A stretch of DNA of 64,000 nt, from NCBI GenBank assembly GCA_021234155.1, contig JAJEKV010000025.1:7826531-7890530 (forward strand), in the 5' to 3' direction. This document shows, one piece after another, positions 11,377 to 41,105 of this stretch. Each line of letters starts with the position of its first letter. Position 1 is the stretch's first letter. The stretch is from Isoetes taiwanensis (Eukaryota; Streptophyta; Lycopodiopsida; Isoetales; Isoetaceae). The notes beneath the pieces were generated by a model. The model was not told the DNA's origin. It searched no databases and worked only from the letters and a program-made list of their open reading frames with translations. A program made the translations under genes and the position numbers.

Positions 11377-14246
11377 ATGGAGGCACGGCGAGGCCAAAGG
11401 GTGGTGATCGATCCAAAGGTTCGGCAGGTAGGCTTCGTTACTCCATGTCCAGGCTCTGATTCTGATCCTATTGTAGCACAATCTACAACAACATTATCTA
11501 CAGTTGTAGTATCCACGGCAATATCATCTCCATCTCCGGTGATCATTCCACCTGCAAGGATTGCAGAACCCCCAAAAGCCGCTCCCATGCCTGTTCCTTC
11601 CCCACCTTCTGCTGCATCCGCTGCAACACGTAGAATGAGGGATAGGGATGGGGAAGCCCATATGCCCATGGGAAGCTATAATCCTGTAGAGAATGTTCTG
11701 GCTACCTCAGTTGAATCAGGTGATAAGGGAAGTAATAGTGATATGCTTGGAAGCAGCCTTCAGACGGATGCTATTGATGATTTGGGTTCTAGTGTTATGT
11801 CAAAATTGAATGGCAGCTTGATGGACCTGAGTATGGGTTCTGGGAGTCCACAATCGGTTTCAACACAATTGTCTGTTGTTGCTGTTGGAAAGGGTCTAGA
11901 GACCCAAAAACCTCAACTGCCATCTGTGGTAGTTGAAAATAATGTTATAACCTTAATTTCCACAGCGCAGGTAGGGGATGCCATGCAGGGTGGAATTGGA
12001 TCGGGAATTTCACAACATCAGGCAGGTAGACATCTGGAGTTGATCTTGTTGATGGCAGATTGCTGTTTCATAACACCTTGAATCTTATTCTGTTCTCAAT
12101 TGGCAGAAGCTGATAAGTCTAGCAAGTCAACCAAGGAAAAAACCACAAAGGCAGAGCGAAGAGCACTACAGGAGGCACAGCGTGCTGCAAAGGCTGCAGC
12201 CAAAGAAACAGGTAACTCATTGTATATCCTGAAGCAGTTCCTTTATATTTTTGCCTTTGCTACTTGTAGTTGAATGGCACTATTCAGAATACTTTCAGCC
12301 GTTAAGTTTAATATGTAATCTTCACAGGTGCTAATAAAGGCGATGTAAATAATTCCCAGAAAGAGGGTAAAAAGAGTTTACCACAAAAAAAAGAGAGCTT
12401 GCCACAAAAGAAAGAGAGTTTACCAGACAAGAAACCCACTGCACCTGAGAAGAAGCCAGCCTTGCTGGCTGAAAAGAAGTCCGCAGAAAAGGCTCCTGAA
12501 AAGGATAAACGGAAGGACGTACCAGCACCTCGAATGCAGTTCGATGATGAACAGCGTGTGGCCAAGGCTAAAAGACGTTCTTTGGTTGAACAGACTGAGA
12601 CCAAAAACAGAGTTGAATTGTTCAGGCACTTGCCACAGTTCAAACACAGCACCCAACTTGCTTTGCTGGAAGCGAAGTTTCTTCATAATGACATGAACCA
12701 ACTGCATCCCGCTGTTTATCAGGTTAGTTTAAAAAATCCAATTTGTTGTCCCTTGATCACTTTGCAGGCAGTGTCTTTTCTAAAAGGGGCATCTTAGCAT
12801 TTGGCTTTTCATGGATTCTCTTATCGTGTTCCAGGCCAACTACCCAACATTGTCTGAGTCTTCTAGGAAATGAATAAGATGGAATACAGTGTTCCCATCA
12901 CTTTCATGTCTTCTTTGAACCAACTAAATGTTTTGTTATTAAGTACTAATATGGGATGCAAAATGCTGGTTTATGAGGTTAAACTAATTGTCATTTTCTT
13001 GAGCACCTTATGCAGGTTGGTTTGCAATATCTAAAGTGGGACATTGTTGGTGGTAACGCACGATGCGTAGCATTGTTGATGGCATTCAAGGAAATGATCA
13101 AAGATTACAGCACCCCTCCTGAGAAAGTTCTAACCAGGGACCTGACTGCCAGGATCAACAGTCACGTTTCATTCTTAACTACGTGTCGGCCACTTTCTAT
13201 AAGCATGGGCAATGCAATTAAATTTTTAAAGGCAAAAGTTGCTAAGATACCAGTAGCTCTTTCAGAGCCAGAGGCAAAGTCCTTATTAATTACGCAGATT
13301 GATACATTTATTCAAGAAAAAATAGTGCTGGCAGACAAGGAAATTGTAAAGCATGCTATGACGAAAATCAAAGATGGAGATGTTATATTGACACATGGTT
13401 CCTCGTGTGTTGTGGAGATGATCCTTATTCACGCACATGAGATTGGGAAGAAGTTTCGTGTTGTGGTTCTCGATTCAAGGCCTAGACTCGAAGGTAGAGG
13501 TCTGCTGCGCAGGCTCTATAGTAAAGGCATTGAATGTACCTATACACACATCAACGCTGCTTCATATATTATGGAAGAGGTTACACGTGTGTTCCTTGGA
13601 GCTGCATCTGTTTTATCAAATGGAGCTGTGTATTCAAGGGTCGGCACTGCATGCGTTGCAATGACAGCTAATGCATTTCGAGTGCCAGTGATGATCTGCT
13701 GTGAGACTTACAAGTTCCATGAGAGAGTACAGTTAGATTCGATTTGCTCGAATGAATTAGGTATGTTTTGCTTGTTTATACAATTTCGTCTATTAAATGA
13801 CAAAGGCTGTATTTTTTTTCGTGGGGGACTGTAGGTGACCCAGATGCTCTTACATCTTTCCCAACCGGTCATAGACCTAGTGTATTGGAAGGTTGGTCTG
13901 AGAATGAGCACCTGCAGTTACTGAATTTGACGTGAGTTGCTCCCAGGCATTTTTGCTCTTGTTGGTTTCTTTTTATGTTCTCGTCTTCTGATGTATTTGG
14001 GCGGATCTTGATCACAGATATGATGCAACACCTTCAGATTACGTGTCCGGGATTATAACAGAACTTGGAACAGTAAGGGAATTGTTGCCTCTATGTAGTT
14101 ATTTAGGATTTGGGATGCTTACTCTTTAGTAAACTCGGATACTTCTGCAAGTTTTCTGATGCATAAAATTTATTGTGGTCCAGGTTCCACCTACAAGTGT
14201 TCCAGTTATTCTAAGAGAGTACAGGAAAGAGCCAATTATGATATGA
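11377..14246 (+). CDS. translation initiation factor eIF2B subunit delta
   Basis: Subunit of the guanine-nucleotide exchange factor that recycles eIF2-GDP to eIF2-GTP in the cytosol, so it sets the rate of translation initiation. Seven exons join in frame: 11377-12025, 12107-12211, 12328-12722, 13016-13760, 13835-13931, 14018-14072, 14184-14246, giving 702 residues. All introns are GT-AG. The start MEARRGQRVVIDPKVRQVGF matches the plant-type N-terminus. Residues about 1-380 are low complexity and basic, with KTTKAERRALQEAQRAAK near 227 and a KKESLP repeat (three copies) near 265. From residue 384 the conserved eIF2B alpha/beta/delta fold begins (GGNARCVALLMAFK, THGSS near 509, VLDSRPRLEGRG). 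It ends with the usual SVPVILREYRKEP tail. No frameshift or internal stop, so it looks functional. Divergent from the minus-strand membrane-protein gene. Confidence 0.96.
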
Positions 14247-30109: not shown

Positions 30110-30254
30110 CACAAATAAATGCTTGCCCAATGTTTCAATGCACCGCCTCACACATTGGGCAAAGTGGGCTTACTCCCAAGGCTTAAAGCAATGAACCATC
30201 CGATTAACTCTCAAAGAGCTTATGAATCACCCGCCAAAGTAGAACATTTATCTT
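30110..30254 (-). mobile_element. LINE copy A, C-terminal zinc-knuckle piece (left of the insertion)
   Basis: On the minus strand, reading away from 30254: INVLLWRVIHKLFE, then stops, then SPLCPMCEAV. This matches residue for residue in spacing the zf-RVT tail of LINE copy B at 49.6-49.8 kb (STLWWQLLHRCL ... CPLCKRQVES). It is cut exactly where the DIRS-like block starts, and the preceding piece of the same protein is found at 39899 onwards. Dead: several stops. Confidence 0.75.
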
Positions 30255-30304
30255 TGAATTTATCTTCGTGATAACGGCAAGAAGATAAATGTAATTGTCA
30301 AAAC
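30255..30304 (+). repeat. left end of the DIRS-like element
   Basis: About 50 bp, from gaatttatcttcgtg to aattgtcaaaac. It is the left-end part of the palindromic site and lacks the outer 'gttttgacaat' present in the complete sites, because the flank here is LINE sequence ('acatttatcttt'). Confidence 0.75.
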
Positions 30305-31469
30305 TATCAAGATGCGCTTTGGCGCTAGGTTTTCCTACCTTTTTATATACCCCCTTCTCTCTCTCCATCCCCATCAGCTCATCTCCGCGATCTCCTTCCG
30401 CCATTTTACCAGCCTTCCCCACGTTCTCAGAAATTCCTTCGAAAGTGTTTTTTTCTTGCTTACCTTGCCATTCTCACCACCTCGCCTATCCTTTTGCCTA
30501 ATTTTGTGTTGCCATTGGTCTTCTTACTCCAATCGTTTTTCCCTTTATTCGGGCTTTGCTCTGCTTTGATTTCACCGGGGTTCTACTCTCTCGCTTTCCT
30601 CTGCACCAAAGGCGCTTTGCTAGCTTTCCCATTATCCTGGGCTTTTGGTTTTCACGCTGATTGTCGCTCTTGTGGCACTTAAGTTGGGTATCGGAACCCT
30701 AAGATTTAGCTGTGGTATGATCTTGGCTGCTGAACTCGCCAGCAAAGCAATCACCGCTTGCCCTTCTCTCGACATCCCACTTGTGTTTATTTTCGCTTCC
30801 CGTTTGTGGCTGCTCCATGGTTAAGTGCAGTTTTTTCTCAAGATTGTTCTCTTTGATGCCGCTAATAGGAGAGCCTGGTTTTTAGAAGGCAAATCAAGTG
30901 GCTGGGCACTGTCATGGTTTTCGCTGCACAGTAGGCATTTTAAGTTCAAGGACCCTTATTTCAGAAGGCAATACACCGCTTCAAATTTTGTTTGAATCTC
31001 GGCCGATTGTGAAGGCGACTCCGCCTCGCCCCTGGCGCGTGAGCAACCTCGTGTGGGTACGTGCCATTTAGTTTCTTTGCAGACCGTTCTAGACTTTTGT
31101 GATCTGCATAATGCCCGTGACATTGCTGGCGGTAACGTCCAAGGTCGAGGCCATTAGGGCCGGGTAAACGCCTCTAGGGGAGACCTCGACCCATCGGCAG
31201 GATGCTTTTAGCTGACTTCCGATGATCACCCTGCCCGCCTTGGGCCAAAGGGATGGAACAAATGGGCCGGCTCCAATAGGGATGATCAAGGTGAGTTGAT
31301 GCTAAGATAACAAATGCTGCAGCTTAAAGAGATCGAGAGGAAAAGCAAGAAGTCCGTAACCCAAATAATGGGGTTTGAGAGCAACATGAGATATTATTCA
31401 TTTCTATAATGAAGTTGAGGATGTCTTGTTGATATTGAGAGCAAATTCCAGGATTTATGAACTTATGAT
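30305..31469 (+). other. 5' leader of the autonomous DIRS-like copy
   Basis: It carries a 'tttttatata' TATA box at about 30338-30347 and then 'ctctccatccccatcagctcatct', shared with the leaders after 34596 and 38556. The rest contains short broken frames. A DIRS element would usually have a gag-like ORF here; none is intact, though 31089-31290 might be a remnant. Confidence 0.5.
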
Positions 31470-32954
31470 GTGGTTATATTTTGCATTGATAAAGATGTTG
31501 ATGCTAATTCTATTGCCTGCACCCATGCCCTTAGCAGTCGCTTGAGAGATCATTTTCCATTTTGGCAGTCTATTTGTAATAGCTCTATGGTGTTGGATTG
31601 GATAAAGAATGGTTACAATCTCCCTTGGCTGTTTTCCCCTCCTTCACAACCTTGGTCTAAACCAAACCATAAGCTTGTTGCTCGCCACTCTTCCTTTGTG
31701 CACTCTGCCATTCATGACTTGATTAAGGCGGGTGCGGCCGTTGAGTCTCTTTCTACCCCTTTCATTTGCTCTCCCCTAGGGGTGGTCCCCAAAGCAGGTA
31801 ATAAATTTCGTTTGATCTTGGACCTCCGTTATGTAAACCAATTCTTAGAGTGTAAGGCTTTTAAATACGAAACCATCAGTGAGTTGCCAACAGTTTTGAG
31901 AAGGGGTGATGGCTTATTTACCATAGACCTTCATTCCGGCTATCACCATGTGGCTATGCATCCTTCAGCTTGGACTTATTTGGGTTTCCAATTTCAGGGC
32001 AAGTCTTATATGTTCACAGCCCTCCCTTTTGGTCTATCCACTGCTTGCTATGTGTTCACTAAACTGATCCGTCAGATTGTTAAACATTTTAGAGCTAACT
32101 CCATTCGTTGTATTCCCTATGTGGATGACTTCATTTTTGCAGTGGCTGCTGAACATTTTTACTCCTCACGTGCTTTTGTCTTACAAGCTTTTAACTCTGC
32201 TGGGTTTGTTATTGCTCCACACAAGTGTCAACTTGAGCTCTCTTTTGAGGTGAAGTTTCTAGGGTATATGGTCAATTCTAAGTCAGGACTCTTATCCATT
32301 GCACCACAACGCCGACAAAAGTTTTTGGATTTGGCCGGGTCGCTTTCTAAAGAGACTAGGGTGCCTGCTCGCAAATTTGCTTCCTTCCTGGGTATGATTG
32401 CTTCATTCAAAGCTGTGTTTGGTCCCTTTTGTAAACTCCTTAGTTTTAACCTTTTGAATCTTTATGCTTCCATTGCCTCTTGGTCCCAGATTGTTCACTT
32501 GAACCCACTTGCTGTCGTTGAGATTGATGCTTGGTCGCAGTGGTTCGATTTGTTGAATTATGCTCTCATTTGGGAACCAGCTTCTCCTGCAATTTCTTTA
32601 TCCTATGATGCCAGTGGCTCTGGGTGGAGTGTGTGGGTTCATGATACTGCTATGTGTAATGAGTTTAGTGGAACTTTTGATGAAACCGAGCGATCTTTAT
32701 CATCTACAGCCAGAGAGCTTTCAGCCCTGGCTCATTTCCTTGAGTTTCATGCTGTGAACCTTGCTGGAAGACGCCTGCTTGCATATGGAGACTCCTTAAA
32801 TTGCTTCTATATTTTGAACAAAGGGGGCTCTCAGATCCCGGCCCTCCATTGTCTGTGTCTTCAGATCTTTACTTTATGTCTTCGTCATAACATCATCCTG
32901 AAGCGCTTGGATTCCCGTGGCCTCAATCGTTGGGCGATTATTTGTCTAAGCTGA
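31470..32954 (+). CDS. reverse transcriptase-RNase H of a DIRS-like element
   Basis: 494 residues; the open frame begins at a GTG, so the true start is uncertain. Reverse transcriptase: STPFICSPLGVVPK near residue 92-106 and FRLILDLRYVN; the first catalytic Asp in FTIDLHSGYHH (about 153); LPFGLSTA; the YVDDFIF box at about 216. RNase H: SYDASGSGW near 378, ARELSALAHFLE, then AYGDSLNCFYIL, all with expected acidic residues. The motifs PFICSPLGVVPK and DASGSGW are of the DIRS/Ngaro kind rather than copia or gypsy. The frame breaks at about 32935 (a one-base loss inside the final RWAD.LS motif). Coding resumes in another frame with DFDDYSLTPEVFRI, then DRFANLDNHLLPNFNCWHP, the conserved linker seen in DIRS proteins before the recombinase. 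It copies element RNA to DNA in the cell. Confidence 0.9.
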   Translation: MVIFCIDKDVDANSIACTHALSSRLRDHFPFWQSICNSSMVLDWIKNGYNLPWLFSPPSQPWSKPNHKLVARHSSFVHSAIHDLIKAGAAVESLSTPFICSPLGVVPKAGNKFRLILDLRYVNQFLECKAFKYETISELPTVLRRGDGLFTIDLHSGYHHVAMHPSAWTYLGFQFQGKSYMFTALPFGLSTACYVFTKLIRQIVKHFRANSIRCIPYVDDFIFAVAAEHFYSSRAFVLQAFNSAGFVIAPHKCQLELSFEVKFLGYMVNSKSGLLSIAPQRRQKFLDLAGSLSKETRVPARKFASFLGMIASFKAVFGPFCKLLSFNLLNLYASIASWSQIVHLNPLAVVEIDAWSQWFDLLNYALIWEPASPAISLSYDASGSGWSVWVHDTAMCNEFSGTFDETERSLSSTARELSALAHFLEFHAVNLAGRRLLAYGDSLNCFYILNKGGSQIPALHCLCLQIFTLCLRHNIILKRLDSRGLNRWAIICLS

Positions 32955-33401
32955 GGGATTTTGATGACTATAGTTTGACGCCTGAGGTTTTTCGCATTAT
33001 TGACCTAGCCTGGGGACCCATGATTGGGATCGTTTTGCTAACTTAGACAATCATCTCCTACCTAATTTCAATTGTTGGCACCCTATCCCGGGAGATCCTT
33101 GCCCTCCGGATGTTTTTCTCTCCTCTTGGAATGGTGCAAATAACTATTGCTTCCCCCCCGGCCTTGACTTTTAAAGCGTTTACGTTTGCTAGAGCACGCA
33201 AAGCCGTGATCTTTCATACCACATGGTGGTTTTTCATTGGGAGTGGGACTCCATGGTGGCCAGCCCTTTCACGGCGATCTTTGGAGAATGGGATTCAAAG
33301 ATTATAGATCATTTGTACTTTAGGTGAGGTGGAAAAGATGTTTTTGTTCAGGAGTTTTGGCTAATGTTGGATGGTGACAATGACTTGCTTGAGTTGAAGA
33401 A
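32955..33401 (+). pseudogene. frameshifted linker between RNase H and recombinase
   Basis: It continues the polymerase protein in other frames: KLRDFDDYSLTPEV, then after a second shift near 33018 DRFANLDNHLL and DVFLSSWNGANNYCFPP. Further breaks follow near 33165. At least two small indels separate it from the reading frame upstream, so this copy probably cannot make the whole protein. Confidence 0.75.
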
Positions 33402-33419
33402 TTGTTTTCAAAGTTGTTG

Positions 33420-34313
33420 ATGTCTTCTAGATCTGGAAGTACTTTGAGAGGTTATCAACATGCTTGGAATCTTTTCAAGAATTGGTGCAAGTCCAAGAAC
33501 CTAGCTTACCCCACCACGATTCTTCTACTATTTGCCTTTTTTCTCACATTCCTCATGTCTTCCTTTTCTAATCCATTGGCGCGTGTCAGCTCCACCATTG
33601 CTGCTGTTGCTTTTTATCACATTCTTGCTGGCTACCCGAAGCCTACAGATCATCCTCTAGTTGCTCTTGCCCGAGACGTGGCTAAGAGGTTATCCACCCC
33701 GTCGCTTAAGAAGAAACAACCCATTCTTCCTCATATGATCCGCAAGCTTTTCGACCAATTTGCTCATCCTGCAGCTCCTCTTTTGGACATTATGAGATGT
33801 ACAGCTATTGTGCTTGCCTTTGTCGCATTCCTACGCAGTAAGGAGTTGCTATCTTTGCTTTGGAATGAGATATTGATTCTGGATACCCACGCGAGCCTTT
33901 TCATTCATTCCTCAAAGACAGACCAGTTGGGGGTTGGTGCCTGGGTCTCTATTGCACGTCTTTCTGGTCCTTATTGCCCTGTTAGCCTTCTGGAAAGATT
34001 GTTGAATTTGGGTAATTTTGCTGAAGTAGATGGTGCGGCTGGTGGCCATTTGATCAGAGGTGTCCGCGTGACGCGTCATGGTTGTTTTTTGAGGAGAAAA
34101 TCTGTTTCTTATTCTACTCTGAGGACTTGGTACAAGCATTGTCTTTCTGCTATTGGTGAAGATGCTAGTATCTTTGGTACCCATTCTGCAAGAAGGGGGG
34201 GAGCCACTTCGGCAGCCGCTTTGAATGTTCCAGATAGGATCTTCAAGGCACATGGTCGCTGGCGTTCTGAGTCTGCTAAAGATGGTTATATTTGCCCTTC
34301 CTTGCAGCAGTAG
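33420..34313 (+). CDS. tyrosine recombinase of a DIRS-like element
   Basis: 297 residues from the ATG at 33420. An N-terminal core-binding-like part (STLRGYQHAWNLFKNWC) is followed by the catalytic part. Visible active-site residues: Arg about 139 in FLRSKELL, Lys about 166 in SSKTDQ, His about 255 and Arg about 258 in HSARRGGAT, His about 278 in HGRWRS, and Tyr about 290 in DGYI. This is the full R-K-HxxR-H-Y set, so the enzyme looks intact. It would join a circular DNA copy of the element to a target by cutting one strand at a time through a covalent tyrosine link. It lies 3' of the polymerase ORF, as is usual for the DIRS order, and was probably made from the same RNA. No methyltransferase domain seen. 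Confidence 0.92.
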   Translation: MSSRSGSTLRGYQHAWNLFKNWCKSKNLAYPTTILLLFAFFLTFLMSSFSNPLARVSSTIAAVAFYHILAGYPKPTDHPLVALARDVAKRLSTPSLKKKQPILPHMIRKLFDQFAHPAAPLLDIMRCTAIVLAFVAFLRSKELLSLLWNEILILDTHASLFIHSSKTDQLGVGAWVSIARLSGPYCPVSLLERLLNLGNFAEVDGAAGGHLIRGVRVTRHGCFLRRKSVSYSTLRTWYKHCLSAIGEDASIFGTHSARRGGATSAAALNVPDRIFKAHGRWRSESAKDGYICPSLQQ

Positions 34314-34534
34314 TTGCTTGTTTCCCGTTCCTTAGGTTTAGGTTCTACAGAACCCAGTGCTTTAGCCCTTTTGTTGGACTCCTCTTTCCCTCCTCCTCCC
34401 CATAAGTGACCTGCGACTTGGCTGCCTCTATTTTCAGCATTTGTATCTCTTGTTGTTGTTAGTGGAGATGCCCAGATGTGGCTTTCTTTCTCTTGTGCTT
34501 TCTTCTACCCTTTACCTCTTCTAGTTAGCTTGCT
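34314..34534 (+). other. 3' tail of the autonomous DIRS-like copy
   Basis: It contains 'cagcatttgtatctcttg' and 'gtggagatgcccagatgtgg' (34437-34485), then a pyrimidine-rich run ending 'agttagcttgctggttttgacaat'. The same tail recurs before the site at 38495 and at 39830-39898, which marks it as the right end of the family. Confidence 0.75.
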
Positions 34535-34596
34535 GGTTTTGACAATTGAATTTATCTTCGTATAACGATAAGAAGATAAATGTAATTGTCAAAACC
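34535..34596. repeat. palindromic site B (complete)
   Basis: An imperfect palindrome of 62 bp with arms of about 26 bp: ggttttgacaatt...atttatcttc reads back as gaagataaat...aattgtcaaaacc. It is the junction between the right end of the coding copy and the left end of the next copy. Symmetric arms around a short spacer are what tyrosine recombinases bind. Confidence 0.85.
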
Positions 34597-35442
34597 ATTC
34601 CCATCTTTGGCGATTTTAGCGATTAGGTTTTTTCCTCGCCTTTTTATACCTTTTGCTTCTCTCCATCCCCATCAGCTCATCTGCATCTCCTTCCGTTTAG
34701 CGGCCAGTCTTCCCCACCCACCCGCCCACCCTTTCCGTCCATCTCCTTGTGCAGGTTGTTGGTGGAGGCAGCATTAGCATGTGGCTAATGTGTGGCTTTC
34801 TTATTGTGGTGCATGTTATGCTTGTGTGAAGCCTTGTGGTTGGGCAGCATTAGCAGATGGCTAATGTGTGGCTCTGGTTTATGGCAGACTTGTGGTGTGA
34901 GCAGCATTAGCATGGTGGCTAATGTGTGGCTTTTGTTTGGCCCTCGTGCCAAGGATGGATGGCCCTCATGCAGGTTTTTGGGAGAGACCATGGTGTCTTG
35001 TGTTTTTACTGCAGGATTTTGCTGAGGCTTTCTTCTTCCATTTGCTTATTTGGAGTTGATTTTTGTGGGGTATCTTTTGGCATTTCCTAGTTGACTTGCA
35101 GCTTGCTGGCTTTATCAGTCTATGCAGAGATGCGGCCACGGCGATGGTTAGAGTTTGTTTGAAGACTTGCGACCCAACTATTTGCAGAAGAGCTTGCACT
35201 GTGTTTCTTTCGCGTGATCGGTTTATTCAGTTTGTTGTTACATTTGTACAGTTTAGATCCCTATTTGGTTAGTGCCACTATTATGGTCAGGGTTTTTCCT
35301 CGAAAACCCGAAAGGGCGAGGTTTTTTAATCCCGTCCATAATGGTTTCACTGACCAATCAGCATTTGTATCTCTTGTTGTTGTTAGTGGAGATGCCCAGA
35401 TGTGGCATTTGTATCTCTTGTTGTTGTTAGTGGAGATGCCAC
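34547..35442 (+). mobile_element. non-autonomous DIRS-like derivative, plus orientation
   Basis: It starts with the left end and leader (TATA box about 34643, shared 'ctccatccccatcagctcatc'), a C-rich run at 34715-34731 and repeated 'cagcattagca..tggctaatgtgtgg' units at 34768-34930. Its interior codes for nothing. Near 35290 it has 'gtttttcctcgaaaacccg', also present inverted at 35607-35625. It ends in a doubled tail motif (35380-35400 and 35424-35436) and meets its inverted relative at about 35440. Confidence 0.7.
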
Positions 35443-36644
35443 ATCTGGGCATCTCCACTAAAAGCAATAACTAGAATACAATGCAGAAAAGCCACATCTG
35501 GGCATCTCCACTAAAAGCAATAACTAGAATACAATGCTGATACAATGCTATGCTTTGAAAGTGTAACTATTTTAGCCGGGATTAAAAAACCTTGCCCTTT
35601 CGGGTTTTCGAGGAAAAACCCTGACGATAATAGAAACACTAAACAAAGATCTTTATCTGAACACAATTGAGTATAACAAGGCTTAAATAAGCCGATAATG
35701 CTGCTTGAGAAAAACTGATAGTCATGACTCTCTGATCCGTGTATACACCGATACTTGAATCTCCAGAAGCTCACGAACTAACAACCTGCACATGCCGTGA
35801 GGCTATTACATCAACCACATAGCCTAGCATGGAACTCACAAACTGCAACCATCATCTGACAACCATCAAACTAGGCATAAGGGCCTCTCACAACCAATAA
35901 TACTAGGCACGAGGGCCTTCAATCTCACAACCAACCACTGGCACGAGGGCCACAAAACTCACAAACCTCCACTGGCACAAGGGCCACCATACACAAACAT
36001 CTATATGCAAAAGGGTCACAAAATCATAATCAATACTTGTCACAAGAAGCATGAAGGTCTTTCATAAATAAGCATATTAGCGGGAGGGTTGAAGGGATGG
36101 GTGGGTGGGGGTACAGGATCGAGAAAGCAACGAGGCATAAAGCAGATGTGCAATCTAATGCTAGAATATAATGCTGCCACTATTTTCCTCCAAACAAGAG
36201 CCTGCCACAATACACATTAACCATGATGCTAATGCTGCTCGAACCACAAAGCTTCACCAAAACATAAGATGCACCACAGCATGCGAGCCACACATTAGCC
36301 ACATGCTAATGCTGCTCGAACCACAAAGCTTCACCAAAACATAACATGCACCACAACATGCGAGCCACACATTAGCCACCTGCTAATGCTGCTTGAGCTA
36401 CTATGCTCCACTAACAAACTTGCACATATGAGGTGGACATATGGGTGGGGTGGGTGGGTGGGAAGCAGGGGATCAAAACCTAAGCGTGGAGATGAAGATG
36501 CGCTGATGAAGAAAAAAGGAAGACTAGAGGGGTATATAAGAACAAGAAAACCTAACCGTCAGGTAACCTAACTAACTAAATGGCACTGGTTTTCGACAAT
36601 TACATTTATCTTCTTATCATTATACGAAGATAAATTCAATTGTC
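35443..36644 (-). mobile_element. non-autonomous DIRS-like derivative, minus orientation
   Basis: It reads from its left end at 36644 downwards: leader with TATA (about 36530), G/C-rich run (36434-36462 and again 36090-36108), two 'agcattagc..gctaatg' units (36226-36395) and 'ccctcgtgccag' minisatellite (35880-36000). It ends in two copies of the tail motif (35441-35460 and 35490-35515). It is an inverted partner of the copy to its left, with diverged interior. Confidence 0.7.
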
Positions 36645-36651
36645 AAAAACC
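36588..36651. repeat. palindromic site C (complete, inverted)
   Basis: Same palindrome as sites B and D read on the other strand, with one extra base in each outer arm ('ggttttcgacaatt' and 'caattgtcaaaaacc'). It joins the left end of the minus copy at its left to the right end of another minus copy at its right. Confidence 0.85.
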
Positions 36652-38505
36652 AGATAAGGGAGAGAGTGAAGAGACAAACTGAAAGAAAAGCCACATCTGG
36701 GCATCTCCACTAAAAGCAATAACTAGAATACAATGCTGAAGAACAGAGGCAGCAAAAAGCTAAAGGTTAGTGTTGCAGGAGAAGCAGGCCAATAGAAGTT
36801 CCATGGAGCTACCATAAAAAGGTCCCAATTGAATGAACGGAAAACCAATATTGCTGCCGACGAGTAGGTATATCTCATGACATTAGAAGGGGAACTGACA
36901 AGAAGTCCAAAGTGCAACTACACACAAAAGGATAGGTTATTTTTGTTGTAAACATAGGGATGGATAAGTTTCTAAGCATATATCAGATGAAGTCAACAAA
37001 GGACGTTCTAAATGTAGTGGATATCCAACAATAGTGAAAAAACCAACAACAGAAACATTGGTAATGACATAGGTGGCGGATTGGAATGGTAAAAATATGT
37101 AATGGCACGCATTAGAACCCTCAACAACTAGGCGGAAATGGACCAATTCAATGAGGCCAAGCATGTTAATAACATCACAACTAATATCAAATCTCTACAA
37201 CTCCAAAACTATCGGAGAAACTCCTCTTCAACCCAAGAATTGGTTAGTGTTCAGAATAGTTGAAATGCCTCAGATCTACAAAATGCCTTGAATAGTGACA
37301 TTTGATTACTTGAGTGGAAGAGGAGTTTTCTCCGTTATTTTTGGAGTTGTAGAGGTTTGACGTTAGTTGTGACGATAGTAGCATGCTTGGCTTTATCGAA
37401 TTGGTCTATTAGCCTGCTTGTTGTTGTCTACATAATTTTTCCATTCCAATCCGCTGCCTATGTCAATATCAATATTGCTTCTGTTGGGTTTTCACTATTG
37501 TTGGATATCCACTACATGCAGAGTATCCTTTAGTTGACTTCACCTATGTGCTTAGAAACTTGTCACCCCTATGTTTACAACAAATATAACCTATTCATTT
37601 TGTATATGGTCTCTCTTTGGATTGCTTCTTTGCGGTTCCCTTCAGAATGTCATGAGATCTATAACTACCCGTCTCTTAAGAACAATGTTGGTTTCTCATT
37701 CATTCGATTCGGGACCTTCCGATGGTAGCTCCATAGAACTTTACCTCGTCTCAACTTGCCTAACTATGATACATATTTACGAGATGCTTGGCATGTTAAG
37801 CATTAATTGGGAACGTTTATAGTTGATGTGTGCCTTTGAACTTTGATGTTGAGGGAGAGTTAGGATAGCTCTTCCTAAAGTCGCAGATTATGGCAAGCTC
37901 TAAGTTGTCTACTTTCCTAATTATAAGGTTTGACCAACTTTGCAATTGTAATTTTAGCCCTTTTTACAACTCTACCTTACCCCATACTACTTAAAATGCA
38001 ACTTCAAGACGAGCTTTCTTGGATAAAACATGTTGATGTTGAATTTGATAGGTTGCCAAATCTTGTGCACGTGTAAGGAATCATTACACTTGGTATGGGT
38101 CCGCGGGCATCGCTAGGTCTCATTTTATCCATCTTTATCTTAAAGAAATCGTAGCTACCTTAGCAATATTTATAGTTGCTTACGGTTTTCTAGTCTATGC
38201 TTGTTTGGTGATATTCCCTAGTTGGGAGCAATATTTGCCTATTTCGTGGTCTTTATTGTAGTTTGAGATTCATGAGAGTCTTTAATCTTGTAAGAGTCTC
38301 TTCACCATGGGCCATTTTGCTGCTTGATGTTACTATTTCTCTCAACTTTCTTGTGGGTCCAATATTTTGTCATTGTAGCTCTTGACTCTACTGCCTCTGT
38401 TTTTCAGCATTGTGACTCTTGTTGTTGGTTTTTGTGGAGATGCCCAGATGTGGCTTTCTTTCATTTGCATTCTCTCTCTCTTAGTTAGCTTGATGGTTTT
38501 GACAA
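36645..38505. mobile_element. inverted pair of DIRS-like fragments with right ends outward
   Basis: Left arm about 36775-37230 (minus) pairs with right arm about 37300-37745 (plus). For example 'tggatatccaacaatagtg' at 37018 mirrors 'cactattgttggatatcca' at 37491, and the two arms meet around a loop of about 70 bp. Both outer sides carry the family's right-end tail (36686-36770 inverted and 38388-38505 direct). The right side has about 640 bp (37750-38385) with no partner in the left side. No coding sequence seen. A long fold-back like this would form a strong hairpin RNA if transcribed. Confidence 0.7.
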
Positions 38506-38556
38506 TTGAATTTATCTTCGTATAATGATAAGAAGATAAATGTAATTGTCAAAACC
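38495..38556. repeat. palindromic site D (complete)
   Basis: Same palindrome as site B with one change in the centre (cttcgtataatg instead of cttcgtataacg). It is the junction of a right-end tail and the left end of the last copy. Confidence 0.85.
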
Positions 38557-39898
38557 ATTCACATGAGTTAGTTTTGGCAGTTACAGCCCTTCTGACGTCT
38601 ATTTATACCTTTCTTTCTCTCTTCCTTTTTCATCAGCTCATCTGCATCTCCCTTGGTTTTTTGCCGTAGAACGTCCTCCTATAGCACCCACCCACCCACC
38701 CACCCACCCTACATCTGTTATGTCAGCTTGCCTGAGTGTTGCTTTGGACCTTTTGTTCCTCCTTAACATCGCATCCGCTAATCCATTACTGTGTTTGGAT
38801 TTCTACATTTGTCTTGAGGGTGTTGTGAGCTTTGTGGCTTGGGCAGCATTAGCATGTGGCTAATGTGTGGCTCTTTGTGGCATCGTGGCCTTGAGTTGGG
38901 CAGCATTAGCATGGTGGCTAATGTGTGGCCTTTTTGTGGCATGATGGCCTTGAGTTGAGCAGCATTAGCATGATGGCTAATGTGTGGCTCTTTGTGTGGC
39001 ATTGTGTGGCTATTATTGTGGCTTTGTGGCTCTTGAGCTGAGCATTGTGACTTTTGTTGTGGCCTAGTGCCTAGTTGGAGGCCTAGTGCCTGGTTGGGGC
39101 CGTTGTGCCTGGTTGAGGCCTGTGTGCCTGGTTGAGGCTTTTGTGCCTGGTTGAGGCTTTTGTGCCTGGTTGGAGGCCTTCGTGCCTGGTTGGAGGCCTT
39201 CGTGCCTGGATGGCCTTGGTGGCTTTTGGTTCGTCTTTCTTGTGTATGCAGGCTTTAGCGTGGCTGTTTGGAAGAGAGCTTTGGATTCGAAGCACAAGAT
39301 GAAGATCTATGGAGAAGACAATTCAAACATTTTTCGTCTTTGGCAACTTCATTGCTGTAATGTATTTTCACCCAATAAGGCTAGTCAGCATGAGGGTACA
39401 AGATCTATTATGTTTTTGGACCTAGCATTGGTTAGTGATCCGAAATCCCCGATCAACCAATTTTAAATATATTATTGGGATATCATGCAAGAAATCTGTC
39501 AACAGTAGAGCTCTATATTCCAACTCTATATTCGAACTGACTAGGCCTTCTTACCTTGATTCACAGGAGTCTCTTCCTCCTCTGATAGATACCTACAATA
39601 CTATGTATTGAACATGTTGATGTAACGGAGATTTCTTTGAGAGAATGATGGTGCAAGATGGTCCTAGAAATTACAACCTTAGGTGTTTATCCTTTGCTTG
39701 ATTCCTTTCACAAATCTAGAAAATCTTGAAGTCGGACAAATTAATTTCATATTTGAGCAGAGATTGCTTCTGCCAGGTGGAGTCTCTTGTATCCTTTGGT
39801 CATTTCAGTATTGTTTACAAGTGTTTTTCACAACTGTCTTTCTCTTGTGCTTTCTTCTACCCTTTACCTCTTCTAGTTAGCTTGCTGGTTTTGACAAT
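38506..39898 (+). mobile_element. non-autonomous DIRS-like derivative, last copy
   Basis: Complete from left end to right end, about 1.4 kb. It has a leader with TATA (about 38603), a C-rich run at 38688-38710, three 'cagcattagca..gtggctaatgtgtgg' units (38842-38990), a minisatellite (39062-39220) and a unique interior of about 600 bp. It ends in the family's right-end tail, 'agttagcttgctggttttgacaat' at 39875-39898. Immediately after this the LINE resumes. It has no enzyme genes and would need proteins from a copy like the one at 31.5-34.3 kb. Confidence 0.75.
39062..39220 (+). repeat. minisatellite, 20-24 bp unit
   Basis: About seven copies of a unit like 'ggccttcgtgcctggttgga', with more identical copies at the right end. 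Related units occur inverted at 35880-36000, so the repeat belongs to the element family. Proline/Gln/Thr-rich minus-strand frames here are artefacts. Confidence 0.8.
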
Positions 39899-40365
39899 GG
39901 AGGATTATATTTAGACCAAACAAGGTTCCAGATGGATTGCCATTGAGAAGGCAAAGTCTGTAAGTGCCATTTTCGAGAAGGTGATAAAATACTTGAGGAG
40001 GTAAGCAATCTGTAGCATGAACTTACTAGCTTCTTGCCTTCTTTAATACCTTGAACAAAGTTCCAGCATCTCTTGTTACCCACCTTCTTAATTAGAGGAA
40101 GAGCACTTGCTGTTCACCTTCCACCAATAATAATCCCTTTACCAAACCATCCTTTTCAGCCTCATGCAATAGTTGCGAAAGTCCTTCTGCCACTATAGTA
40201 AACAAAAAAGGAGCTAAAGGGCAACCTTGCCTTATTCCACGTTCAATTGGAAAAAGCACCAATGGTTCTCCATGATATAGTACTACCCCCTTAGCAGAAA
40301 TCAACATTTTATGCATCATAGATCGGAAACCAGACCCAAATCCCAATTTCAAAAGCATGGAGATC
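39899..40365 (-). mobile_element. LINE copy A, 3' segment (right of the insertion)
   Basis: Minus strand. From 40365 downwards the middle of a LINE reverse transcriptase reads MLLKLGFGSGFR, then GEPLVLFPIERGIRQGCPLA and LFTIVAEGLSQLL. Sequence then jumps near 40090 to the C-terminal part with PSQWQSIWNLVWSK, so the YADD box and thumb are deleted. The frame is cut at 39899 by the DIRS-like block and continues left of 30254. Confidence 0.85.
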
Positions 40366-41105
40366 GTTGTAATAAGTTGTTTTTTAGAGCTCCAAAGCAG
40401 AAGAGGTATGCCGCTACTATGCATTCTTTATCTCTGCCAGATGGGAGGGTAATGACAGAGCCAAATGAGATTAAGCAGTCTCTTACTCAATACTTTGAAA
40501 CTTTTTTTAAGGTCAAACACTTGCCTCATGAAGATGTAATGCAGGATATTGTGCTTTCTAAGGTTCATGCAATTCTTTCACAAGAGGAATCTCAATTGTT
40601 AGAGGCCCCACTGTCCATGTCTGACTTGCGAGCAGCAACATTTGAGTTGGCTTCAGATAAATGTCCAGGTATGGATGGTATCCCTGTAGAATTTTTTAAA
40701 AGGTATTGGGAATGGACGCCAGTGAGCATTATGGAGGCATACAAAGATTTGTGTACTTCACATCAATTTGATAGGATTTTGAATACGGGTTTGATTTCTC
40801 TTATTCCTAAAATGAAAGAACCTGTGAGCATTCATGATTGGCGCCCAATAACTCTTCTATCTACTATCTATAAAATTATTGCAAAAGCCTATGCAGAAAG
40901 ACTTAAACAGGTTTTGGGATTGAGAATAGATGCGGCTCAGTCAGGCTTTCTTCCAGGTCGGCAAATTTTCATAATATAGTGGCAGCATATGAAGGAGTTC
41001 ATTGGGCTCAATGTTCAGGTCAAAATCTTCTATATTTAAAATTGGATTTTGCTAAAGCTTATGATAGTGTGAAGTGGACTTTCTTGGATGCCATGCTTTT
41101 GGGTT
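40359..41105 (+). mobile_element. LINE copy A, inverted 5' segment
   Basis: Plus strand. HGDRCNKLFFRAPKQKR, then KCPGMDGIPVEFFKRYW, LISLIPKMKEP, DWRPITLLSTIYKI and QSGFLPGRQ cover the fingers of a plant LINE reverse transcriptase. After a frameshift near 40975 comes LKLDFAKAYDSVKWTFLDAM, which holds the first catalytic Asp. It stops at about 41100 at 'ccatgcttttg', the same bases at which the minus-strand segment begins. This head-to-head layout is the signature of twin priming during LINE insertion. Confidence 0.85.

Follow-up and report, generated by a model that had tools for sequence, protein, structure and literature searches.

A probable PAT-like tyrosine recombinase retroelement family in the lycophyte Isoetes taiwanensis

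Our initial question was what kind of retroelement lies in a 64,000-nucleotide stretch of the Isoetes taiwanensis assembly (the window), and whether it belongs to its host. A preliminary description had proposed an almost intact DIRS/Ngaro-type copy, of a kind little described in land plants. A 2022 review of land-plant transposons, according to which DIRS elements are known only from green algae, states this gap; against it, plant genome papers, in the parts available, name DIRS in repeat tables or text without an element description. The kind of element is known, but its host was not expected: it is very probably a PAT-like member of the DIRS order that resides in a lycophyte and is inserted conservatively by its tyrosine recombinase (YR) at a B|A junction, with an old and broken copy in the window. 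The features of this copy and of its neighbors, all in window coordinates, are as follows.

30254-35421, plus strand: decayed YR-encoding retroelement, followed downstream by an inverted and then a direct partial copy
30254..30422, plus strand: A1 left terminal repeat, inner palindrome at its left end (76% to A2 over 178 aligned columns)
31248..31451, plus strand: gag remnant of 66-68 amino acids (tblastn, 41-45% to gag of copies L014, L017 and L018)
31470..32954, plus strand: reverse transcriptase (RT) and RNase H frame, 494 amino acids (RVT_1, 8.8e-16; RT_RNaseH, 0.026, under its Pfam cut-off; YVDD at 32118, DASGSGW at 32607)
32921..33342, plus strand: methyltransferase (MT)-like end of pol, broken, in shifted frames (tblastn with L014 and L018 pol)
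33304..33411, plus strand: remnant of the YR N terminus in another frame (tblastn with L014 YR)
33402..34313, plus strand: YR frame, 303 amino acids (catalytic motifs; at least 136 genome matches)
34434..34545, plus strand: B1 repeat (95% to B2 across 64 nucleotides)
34534..34598, plus strand: nested palindrome at the B1|A2 junction (inverted repeat; single-strand fold of -23.1 kcal/mol, z -10.8)
34546..34717, plus strand: A2 repeat (repeat comparison)
34718..35358, plus strand: 3' tail from A2 to B2, with no long reading frame in the list (95% identical to sister copy L010)
35359..35421, plus strand: truncated B2 repeat (sequence comparison)
35439..36864, minus strand: inverted partial copy with YR 3' end, B1, A2, tail and B2 (blastn with L010, L011 and L019)
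38374..39901, plus strand: direct partial copy with the same parts (sequence comparison; junction fold)

The first proposal of an almost intact copy was rejected, since the member of the family in the window is old and broken: gag is mostly lost, the pol and YR frames are interrupted, B2 is truncated, and 44 of 165 sites distinguish A1 from A2 (K2P 0.335). Its YR frame has an out-of-frame N terminus and a premature end, compared with open frames of 363-364 amino acids in L014, L018 and L019. The proposed RT and RNase H nonetheless stand, on the motifs and the Pfam matches listed above, of which that to RNase H is weak, and the full R-K-HxxR-H-Y recombinase set is present in the YR frame (FLRSKEL, SSKTDQ, HSARRGG and HGRWRSESAKDGY), which by itself has no Pfam family match. 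The absence of a DDE integrase was likewise borne out, as Pfam finds no such family in either window frame or in the scanned frames of L018, L020 and L027. In place of LTRs, which the first reading had also found missing, there are split direct repeats. Of the several derivatives thought to lie beside the copy, we could confirm one inverted and one direct 3' part. The inverted part abuts the first copy in a head-to-head arrangement, and the direct part is 92% identical to L011 across 38374-39441. The earlier view that the family has been mobile is upheld.

A count of copies in the host assembly, suggested by the preliminary description, returned at least 92 RT and at least 136 YR matches, and elsewhere in the genome there are copies in which gag, pol and YR stay open over long stretches. 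The family is large, and it is recently active. Complete split direct repeats in the order A1-gag-RT/RNase H/MT-like-YR-B1A2-B2 were found in 11 of the 24 loci fetched, completeness not being demonstrated for the other 13; the repeat analysis took in 14 of the first 20 loci, the remaining six having no A pair. K2P distances between A1 and A2 (12 loci) are 0 in three loci and 0.005-0.022 in seven; in L030 A1 and A2 are 89% identical yet B1 and B2 100%. Of 48 comparisons, 16 have a finite dS, and in these omega is 0.10-0.26. Several copies are young, with no difference between their repeats, and purifying selection acts on their genes. Proteins diverge by up to 59% between copies, and the main branches are ∼41% identical. 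L012 carries an inverted 3' duplication, which we read as a rearrangement, and five of six genome matches that contain only B end at query position 148-149.

The gag frames contain a zf-CCHC zinc finger in L018 (1.9e-5) and L020 (1.1e-5); none was seen by eye in the L026-L028 frames. The MT-like region of L018, L020 and L027 matches PF05869 only at E 0.07-0.17, below the Pfam cut-off, and it aligns with relatives, six of the 12 aligned proteins matching PF05869 at E 0.01 or better. At the six catalytic positions of the YR, conservation is complete or reaches at least 90% in an alignment of 35 relatives, which includes four Isoetes copies other than the window copy. An ALOG-type recombinase was considered and rejected, as the L018 and L020 recombinases have no zinc-ribbon match with an E value of up to 1; no paired cysteines were seen by eye in the N terminus of the L014 recombinase.

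With an E value of at most 1e-3, there are 280 and 176 related proteins, and many of these are listed with RT and Dam matches. Named relatives are from algae and aquatic animals; a scan of viral contigs returned no relative, and a scan of genome contigs gave two distant matches, in contigs labelled as bacterial metagenome-assembled genomes (MAGs). The pol proteins of the streptophyte alga Klebsormidium nitens (P0124-P0127 and P0129, annotated as reverse transcriptase or hypothetical) share the RT-RNase H-MT-like order and are 40-41% identical to L018 pol across 84-93% of its length. P0124 and P0126 have a gag-like stretch before RT in the same chain, with no zinc knuckle listed, in which they differ from the Isoetes family. 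In a pol tree of 11 Isoetes copies (L010, L011 and L021 left out) and 38 of the 218 listed pol relatives, the Isoetes sequences form one clade (support 100/99) with a Klebsormidium clade as sister (99/95), and Closterium follows; these are streptophytes, with unnamed sequences among them. The YR tree omits 15 of the 120 YR matches, those shorter than 250 amino acids, and later trees were rooted on animal and environmental sequences. A single Isoetes clade sister to Klebsormidium suits vertical descent within streptophytes. Horizontal transfer from an alga into the Isoetes lineage is a less likely history, to which we give perhaps a quarter of our belief: the 2022 review has no DIRS elements in other land plants, and both Arabidopsis rows are 0 in the portion of a YR-element survey available. 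Against transfer stand the streptophyte branching order and the depth of the Isoetes clade, whose main branches share ∼41% protein identity, so that it has long been resident.

Nested palindromes were found at all 12 B1|A2 junctions folded (z -3.6 to -11.8), and the crossover lies close to the boundary between their outer and inner arms. Palindromes also occur in two further window junctions (36591-36648 in the inverted partial copy, which folds with z -9.2, and 38497-38554 in the direct one) and in two junctions of L032, where the folds have z -5.6 and -8.0 with the full outer arm and -1.2 and -3.2 when it is cut. Folding took the place of an ungapped palindrome score, whose results were mixed because the arm spacing differs: between 0 and 85 of ∼280 control windows equalled or exceeded the observed values. 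Across nine junctions, changes on both sides occur at three of 11 inner-arm pairs; this covariation analysis is limited to the inner arms, since from one subfamily to another the outer arms are shifted by one position in the alignment, and its count of further pair types is no better than shuffled (157/500). We read the window palindrome at 34534..34598 as the image of a circle junction.

Of 336 candidate places 40 were scored, and the joined flanks of L028 match every one of them, with 236 or more of the 240 bases covered and an identity of 93-96%. In three aligned empty sites of this copy no base is gained or lost, which fits an exact reciprocal exchange. Such sites, known here for this one copy, are as expected of a tyrosine recombinase; no empty sites for the flanks of 11 copies were found among the fetched loci. 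The B2 break lies within 1 nucleotide of an AA in all 12 B2 ends read, AA being common in such DNA, and at the crossover we see no overlap in L019 and L025 and a gap in L027. The nested palindromes at B1|A2 junctions and the exact empty site are new here.

By the PAT/Ngaro model in the literature, a complete copy (A1, gag, RT/RNase H/MT-like pol, YR, B1|A2, tail, B2) would have its RNA copied into a circle by way of the internal B1|A2 repeat, so that the circle junction would have the B|A sequence. The empty sites of one copy, together with the ends read in 12 copies, support a further step in which the recombinase joins circle and chromosome by one conservative crossover. Exchange would take place at a short core of 0-2 bp, at or beside an AA and near the outer/inner arm boundary, with the palindrome arms as putative recombinase binding sites, and would leave A1 at the left, B2 at the right and no target duplication. 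The YR of a sister copy matches Cre in the PDB (E 2.4e-4) and by sequence belongs to the same superfamily. The exchange at loxP, too, neither adds nor removes bases and takes place at a short core next to inverted arms; the Isoetes site differs in its nested double palindrome, where the crossover could lie at either of two positions, and its enzyme serves a retroelement. A more speculative reading, which we hold to be improbable, is that the B|A junction resembles an integron attC site, the YR cutting a single-stranded cDNA circle, folded as the nested hairpin, close to where the outer helix gives way to the inner one. If so, the element would be a eukaryotic retro-cassette that could also insert at the B|A of earlier copies and build arrays; L032 has two gag'-YR units in tandem, 97% identical and each bounded by B|A.

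The element has RT, RNase H and a tyrosine recombinase, with no DDE integrase in the scanned frames. It is placed in the DIRS order by its repeats, by the YR that it encodes and by relatives such as an Amphiura protein that combines RT, RNase H, MT-like and YR parts. Within this order the family is best described as PAT-like rather than DIRS1-like or Ngaro, types set apart here by their descriptions; the DIRS part of the original DIRS/Ngaro-type label thus holds, and the PAT-like plan fits better than Ngaro. The Pat1-like sea-urchin form shares with it split direct repeats, a Gag zinc finger and a direct YR, and has an MT-like region, whose Isoetes counterpart is below the Pfam cut-off, according to the available text of PMC4157794, from which we also read that its internal repeats lie downstream of YR; it has an animal host and was compared by description. 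In the same text the green-algal PAT elements Toc3 and Kangaroo share the split direct repeats and are without the Gag zinc finger, and Kangaroo has an inverted YR with internal repeats before it. A Kangaroo type was rejected, the Isoetes YR being in direct orientation with B1A2 downstream. That the family is Ngaro-like or DIRS1-like instead is unlikely. Ngaro, in the descriptions available, also has split direct repeats downstream of YR, but it has no methyltransferase region, whereas the Isoetes family has a homologous region, below the Pfam cut-off. DIRS1-like elements have inverted terminal repeats and an internal complementary region, whereas the complete Isoetes copies have direct A and B repeats.

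That the family is an LTR retrotransposon with a captured recombinase, outside the DIRS order, is very unlikely. The best PDB matches of its RT are Ty3 and retrovirus-type RTs, as expected of the whole RT class, and Ty3, the sole LTR outgroup in one RT tree, fell beside the Isoetes sequences on a branch of 4.91 and could neither be placed firmly nor root the tree. Against this origin are the repeat structure, the lack of an integrase in the scanned frames, the many related proteins with RT and Dam matches, and a YR that follows the MT-like part, as in the Amphiura protein. Contamination by an alga or animal, hardly conceivable even though the plants were grown under water and non-axenically, non-plant contigs had to be removed (from the available part of the genome paper) and the named relatives are aquatic, is refuted by L028 nested in a repeat found at 40 other scored places of the Isoetes genome, and is further opposed by matches on many scaffolds of up to 53 Mb and by strongly divergent copies of which the 11 in the pol tree form one clade; the land-plant host first assumed is therefore upheld.

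The family fills a gap stated outright in the 2022 review, and suggests that PAT-like elements of streptophyte algae reached vascular plants and have remained active in them. The plant ALOG DNA-binding domain has been reported to derive from a DIRS recombinase, with no complete streptophyte element known at that writing; the Isoetes family bears on the plant source of this domain, though its recombinase is not of the zinc-ribbon kind. With the nested palindromes and the exact empty site, the DIRS integration step becomes directly testable in vitro, and annotators gain signatures for such elements in other seed-free plants.

The window copy (30254-35421) contains a 494-aa reverse transcriptase (RT) frame at 31470-32954 that matches RVT_1 (8.8e-16) and, weakly, RNase H (0.026) in a Pfam scan, and both motifs that the preliminary description had assigned to RT and RNase H, YVDD and DASGSGW, are found in it. 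Taken alone, the 303-aa tyrosine recombinase (YR) frame at 33402-34313 matched no Pfam family. It does hold the full catalytic set claimed earlier: all six tyrosine recombinase positions are present, and across 35 aligned relatives each of them is either unvarying or conserved to 90% or more. A PDB search with the sister YR from genome piece L018 returned Cre (E 2.4e-4), with HSAR of the two proteins in register. Contrary to what had been proposed, the copy is not almost intact. Compared with sisters that have longer open frames, most of gag is gone, both the methyltransferase-like region and the YR contain frame breaks, the YR ends early and B2 is truncated. A1 and A2 of this copy differ at 44 of 165 sites. 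The derivatives reported beside it comprise one inverted and one direct 3' part. Other features of the window are as follows.

12983-13831: open frame that encodes a domain of initiation factor 2B (PF01008, E 1.2e-68)
37038-37492: fold-back repeat with arms of 64-84 nt that are 83-85% complementary, located between the inverted partial copy and the direct one
40281-40976: separate RT fragment just past the last partial copy (RVT_1 5.9e-6, under the Pfam cut-off), probably a LINE

Genome searches, in which 87 of 9208 RT candidates and 130 of 1487 YR candidates were scored, returned at least 92 RT matches and at least 136 YR matches; one copy can yield more than one match. We fetched 24 genome pieces of 8-10 kb each. 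Eleven contain the full set of A1, coding region, B1A2 and B2, and the remaining 13 are incomplete, rearranged or without resolved structure.

Complete loci: L011, L019, L020, L022, L023, L025, L026, L027, L028, L030, L032

Nine of the complete copies measure 5.2-7.6 kb. Stop-to-stop open frames among the loci span 266-341 aa for gag, mostly 561-717 aa for pol (one fused frame has 815 aa) and 331-367 aa for YR. Both gag copies scanned have a zinc knuckle. RNase H is followed by a region with homology to the Dam-like part that relatives have; in Isoetes it falls under the Pfam cut-off. For PAT, Toc3, Kangaroo, Ngaro and DIRS1 we follow the definitions given in PMC4157794 and PMC6681497.

We dated insertions on the premise that A1 and A2, and B1 and B2, were identical when inserted, as is implied by the published repeat model (PMC6681497). 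The repeats show zero differences in three of 12 dated loci (265, 153 and 114 sites); K2P is 0.005-0.022 in seven, 0.139 in one and 0.335 in the window copy. With a rough rate of 6.5e-9, borrowed from a fern paper, the ten youngest loci would be less than about 2 million years old. L030:1902-7422 is a poor fit to simple repeat dating, because its B1 and B2 are 100% alike yet A1 and A2 only 89%. Of 48 comparisons of pol, YR or gag, 16 had a finite dS, and in these omega is 0.10-0.26; dS is high in several of the 16 and saturated in the other 32.

Among the matches listed in our protein searches (about 8000 candidates scored each, best 120 listed, most nameless), pol proteins of Klebsormidium nitens are the nearest that carry a name (40-41%), followed by those of Coccomyxa and Closterium; more distant matches include an Amphiura protein with RT, RH, methyltransferase-like and YR parts in a single chain. 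No named land-plant protein is among them, though annotations often omit repeat proteins. All 11 Isoetes rows in a 49-row pol tree form one clade (100/99), with a clade of Klebsormidium and unnamed sequences as sister (99/95) and a Closterium clade next (93/93). In the YR tree, two JGI proteins stand next to six of the seven Isoetes rows (support 91); the remaining row, from L026, has a long branch and an unsure position. DIRS-type proteins also occur on contigs labelled as bacterial MAGs (genome pieces L033 and L034, database protein P0004), likely eukaryotic contamination of those bins.

According to a 2022 review, green algae are the only group in which DIRS have been found (PMC9033089), and a 2011 survey describes green plants as devoid of DIRS1-like elements (PMC3266345). 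Neither the I. taiwanensis genome paper (PMC8566536) nor that of I. sinensis uses the word "DIRS" in its main text, and our literature search, which covered few subscription journals and preprints, returned no paper linking Isoetes with a tyrosine recombinase. Repeat tables or text list 361 elements under DIRS in Ceratopteris and DIRS at 8.26% in Chinese fir, and DIRS is also a class in a plant repeat database; these are labels that may not denote real PAT elements.

Locus L032 has the order A, gag', YR, B-A, gag', YR, B-A, tail, B. Its two gag'-YR units (L032:2788-8187) lie in tandem, are 97% identical and are each bounded by B-A; the tandem has no RT match. The array may have arisen when a second circle inserted at the B-A junction of an earlier one, or by slippage between A repeats during copying. 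At window 35350-35500 and in L012:7640-8297 the 3' tail is duplicated head to head, with the turning point within B2; in L012 the end of the inverted duplication coincides with the A crossover or lies close to it, which leaves the A ends inverted. Short additional partial B copies occur near B2, downstream of A2, in L015, L016, L030, L031 and L032, and look as if the B end had slipped in copying.

All 12 B1-A2 junctions tested, including L009, the first in the window, fold as nested palindromes (z -3.6 to -11.8), as do both further window junctions and both L032 junctions. In most of them a short unpaired step separates the outer from the inner helix; the step is nearly absent in L023 and L024, and the inner helix is weak in L027. 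In all 12 readable B2 ends the break lies at most one base from an AA, counted without a chance control, and, judged by eye, a few bases at most from the boundary of outer and inner arm (left-hand in ten, right-hand in L011 and L019). A B1A2 genome query (40 of 582 candidates scored) gave six B-only matches. Five of them end where L011 does, at query position 148 or 149; the other match, a B piece of 48 bases, lies next to one of these five.

Inner arm sequence is kept within one large subgroup of nine junctions, where three of 11 inner-arm pairs have changed on both sides and seven are invariable, as expected for a putative recombinase binding site. Integron attC sites offer a point of comparison for the junction hairpin. 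By this analogy, the YR would cut the hairpin of a folded single-stranded cDNA circle at B-A, which we consider improbable: the conservation of arm sequence counts against it and favours duplex binding, and the crossover, though close to the helix step, does not always coincide with it.

L028 is flanked on the left by a retroviral-type protease match (PF08284) and on the right by a weak RT match under the cut-off. Its joined flanks, two bases short after trimming of chance matches, match all 40 places scored among 336 candidates (at least 236 of 240 bases, 93-96%). Three aligned empty sites (L035-L037) read left flank, T, right flank. Cutting the junction just 3' of AA and the target just 5' of T yields the exact ends of L028, with no base gained or lost. 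For this one copy, the sequences point to insertion by conservative exchange, in which the target recombined with a circle bearing a junction that would equal B1-A2.
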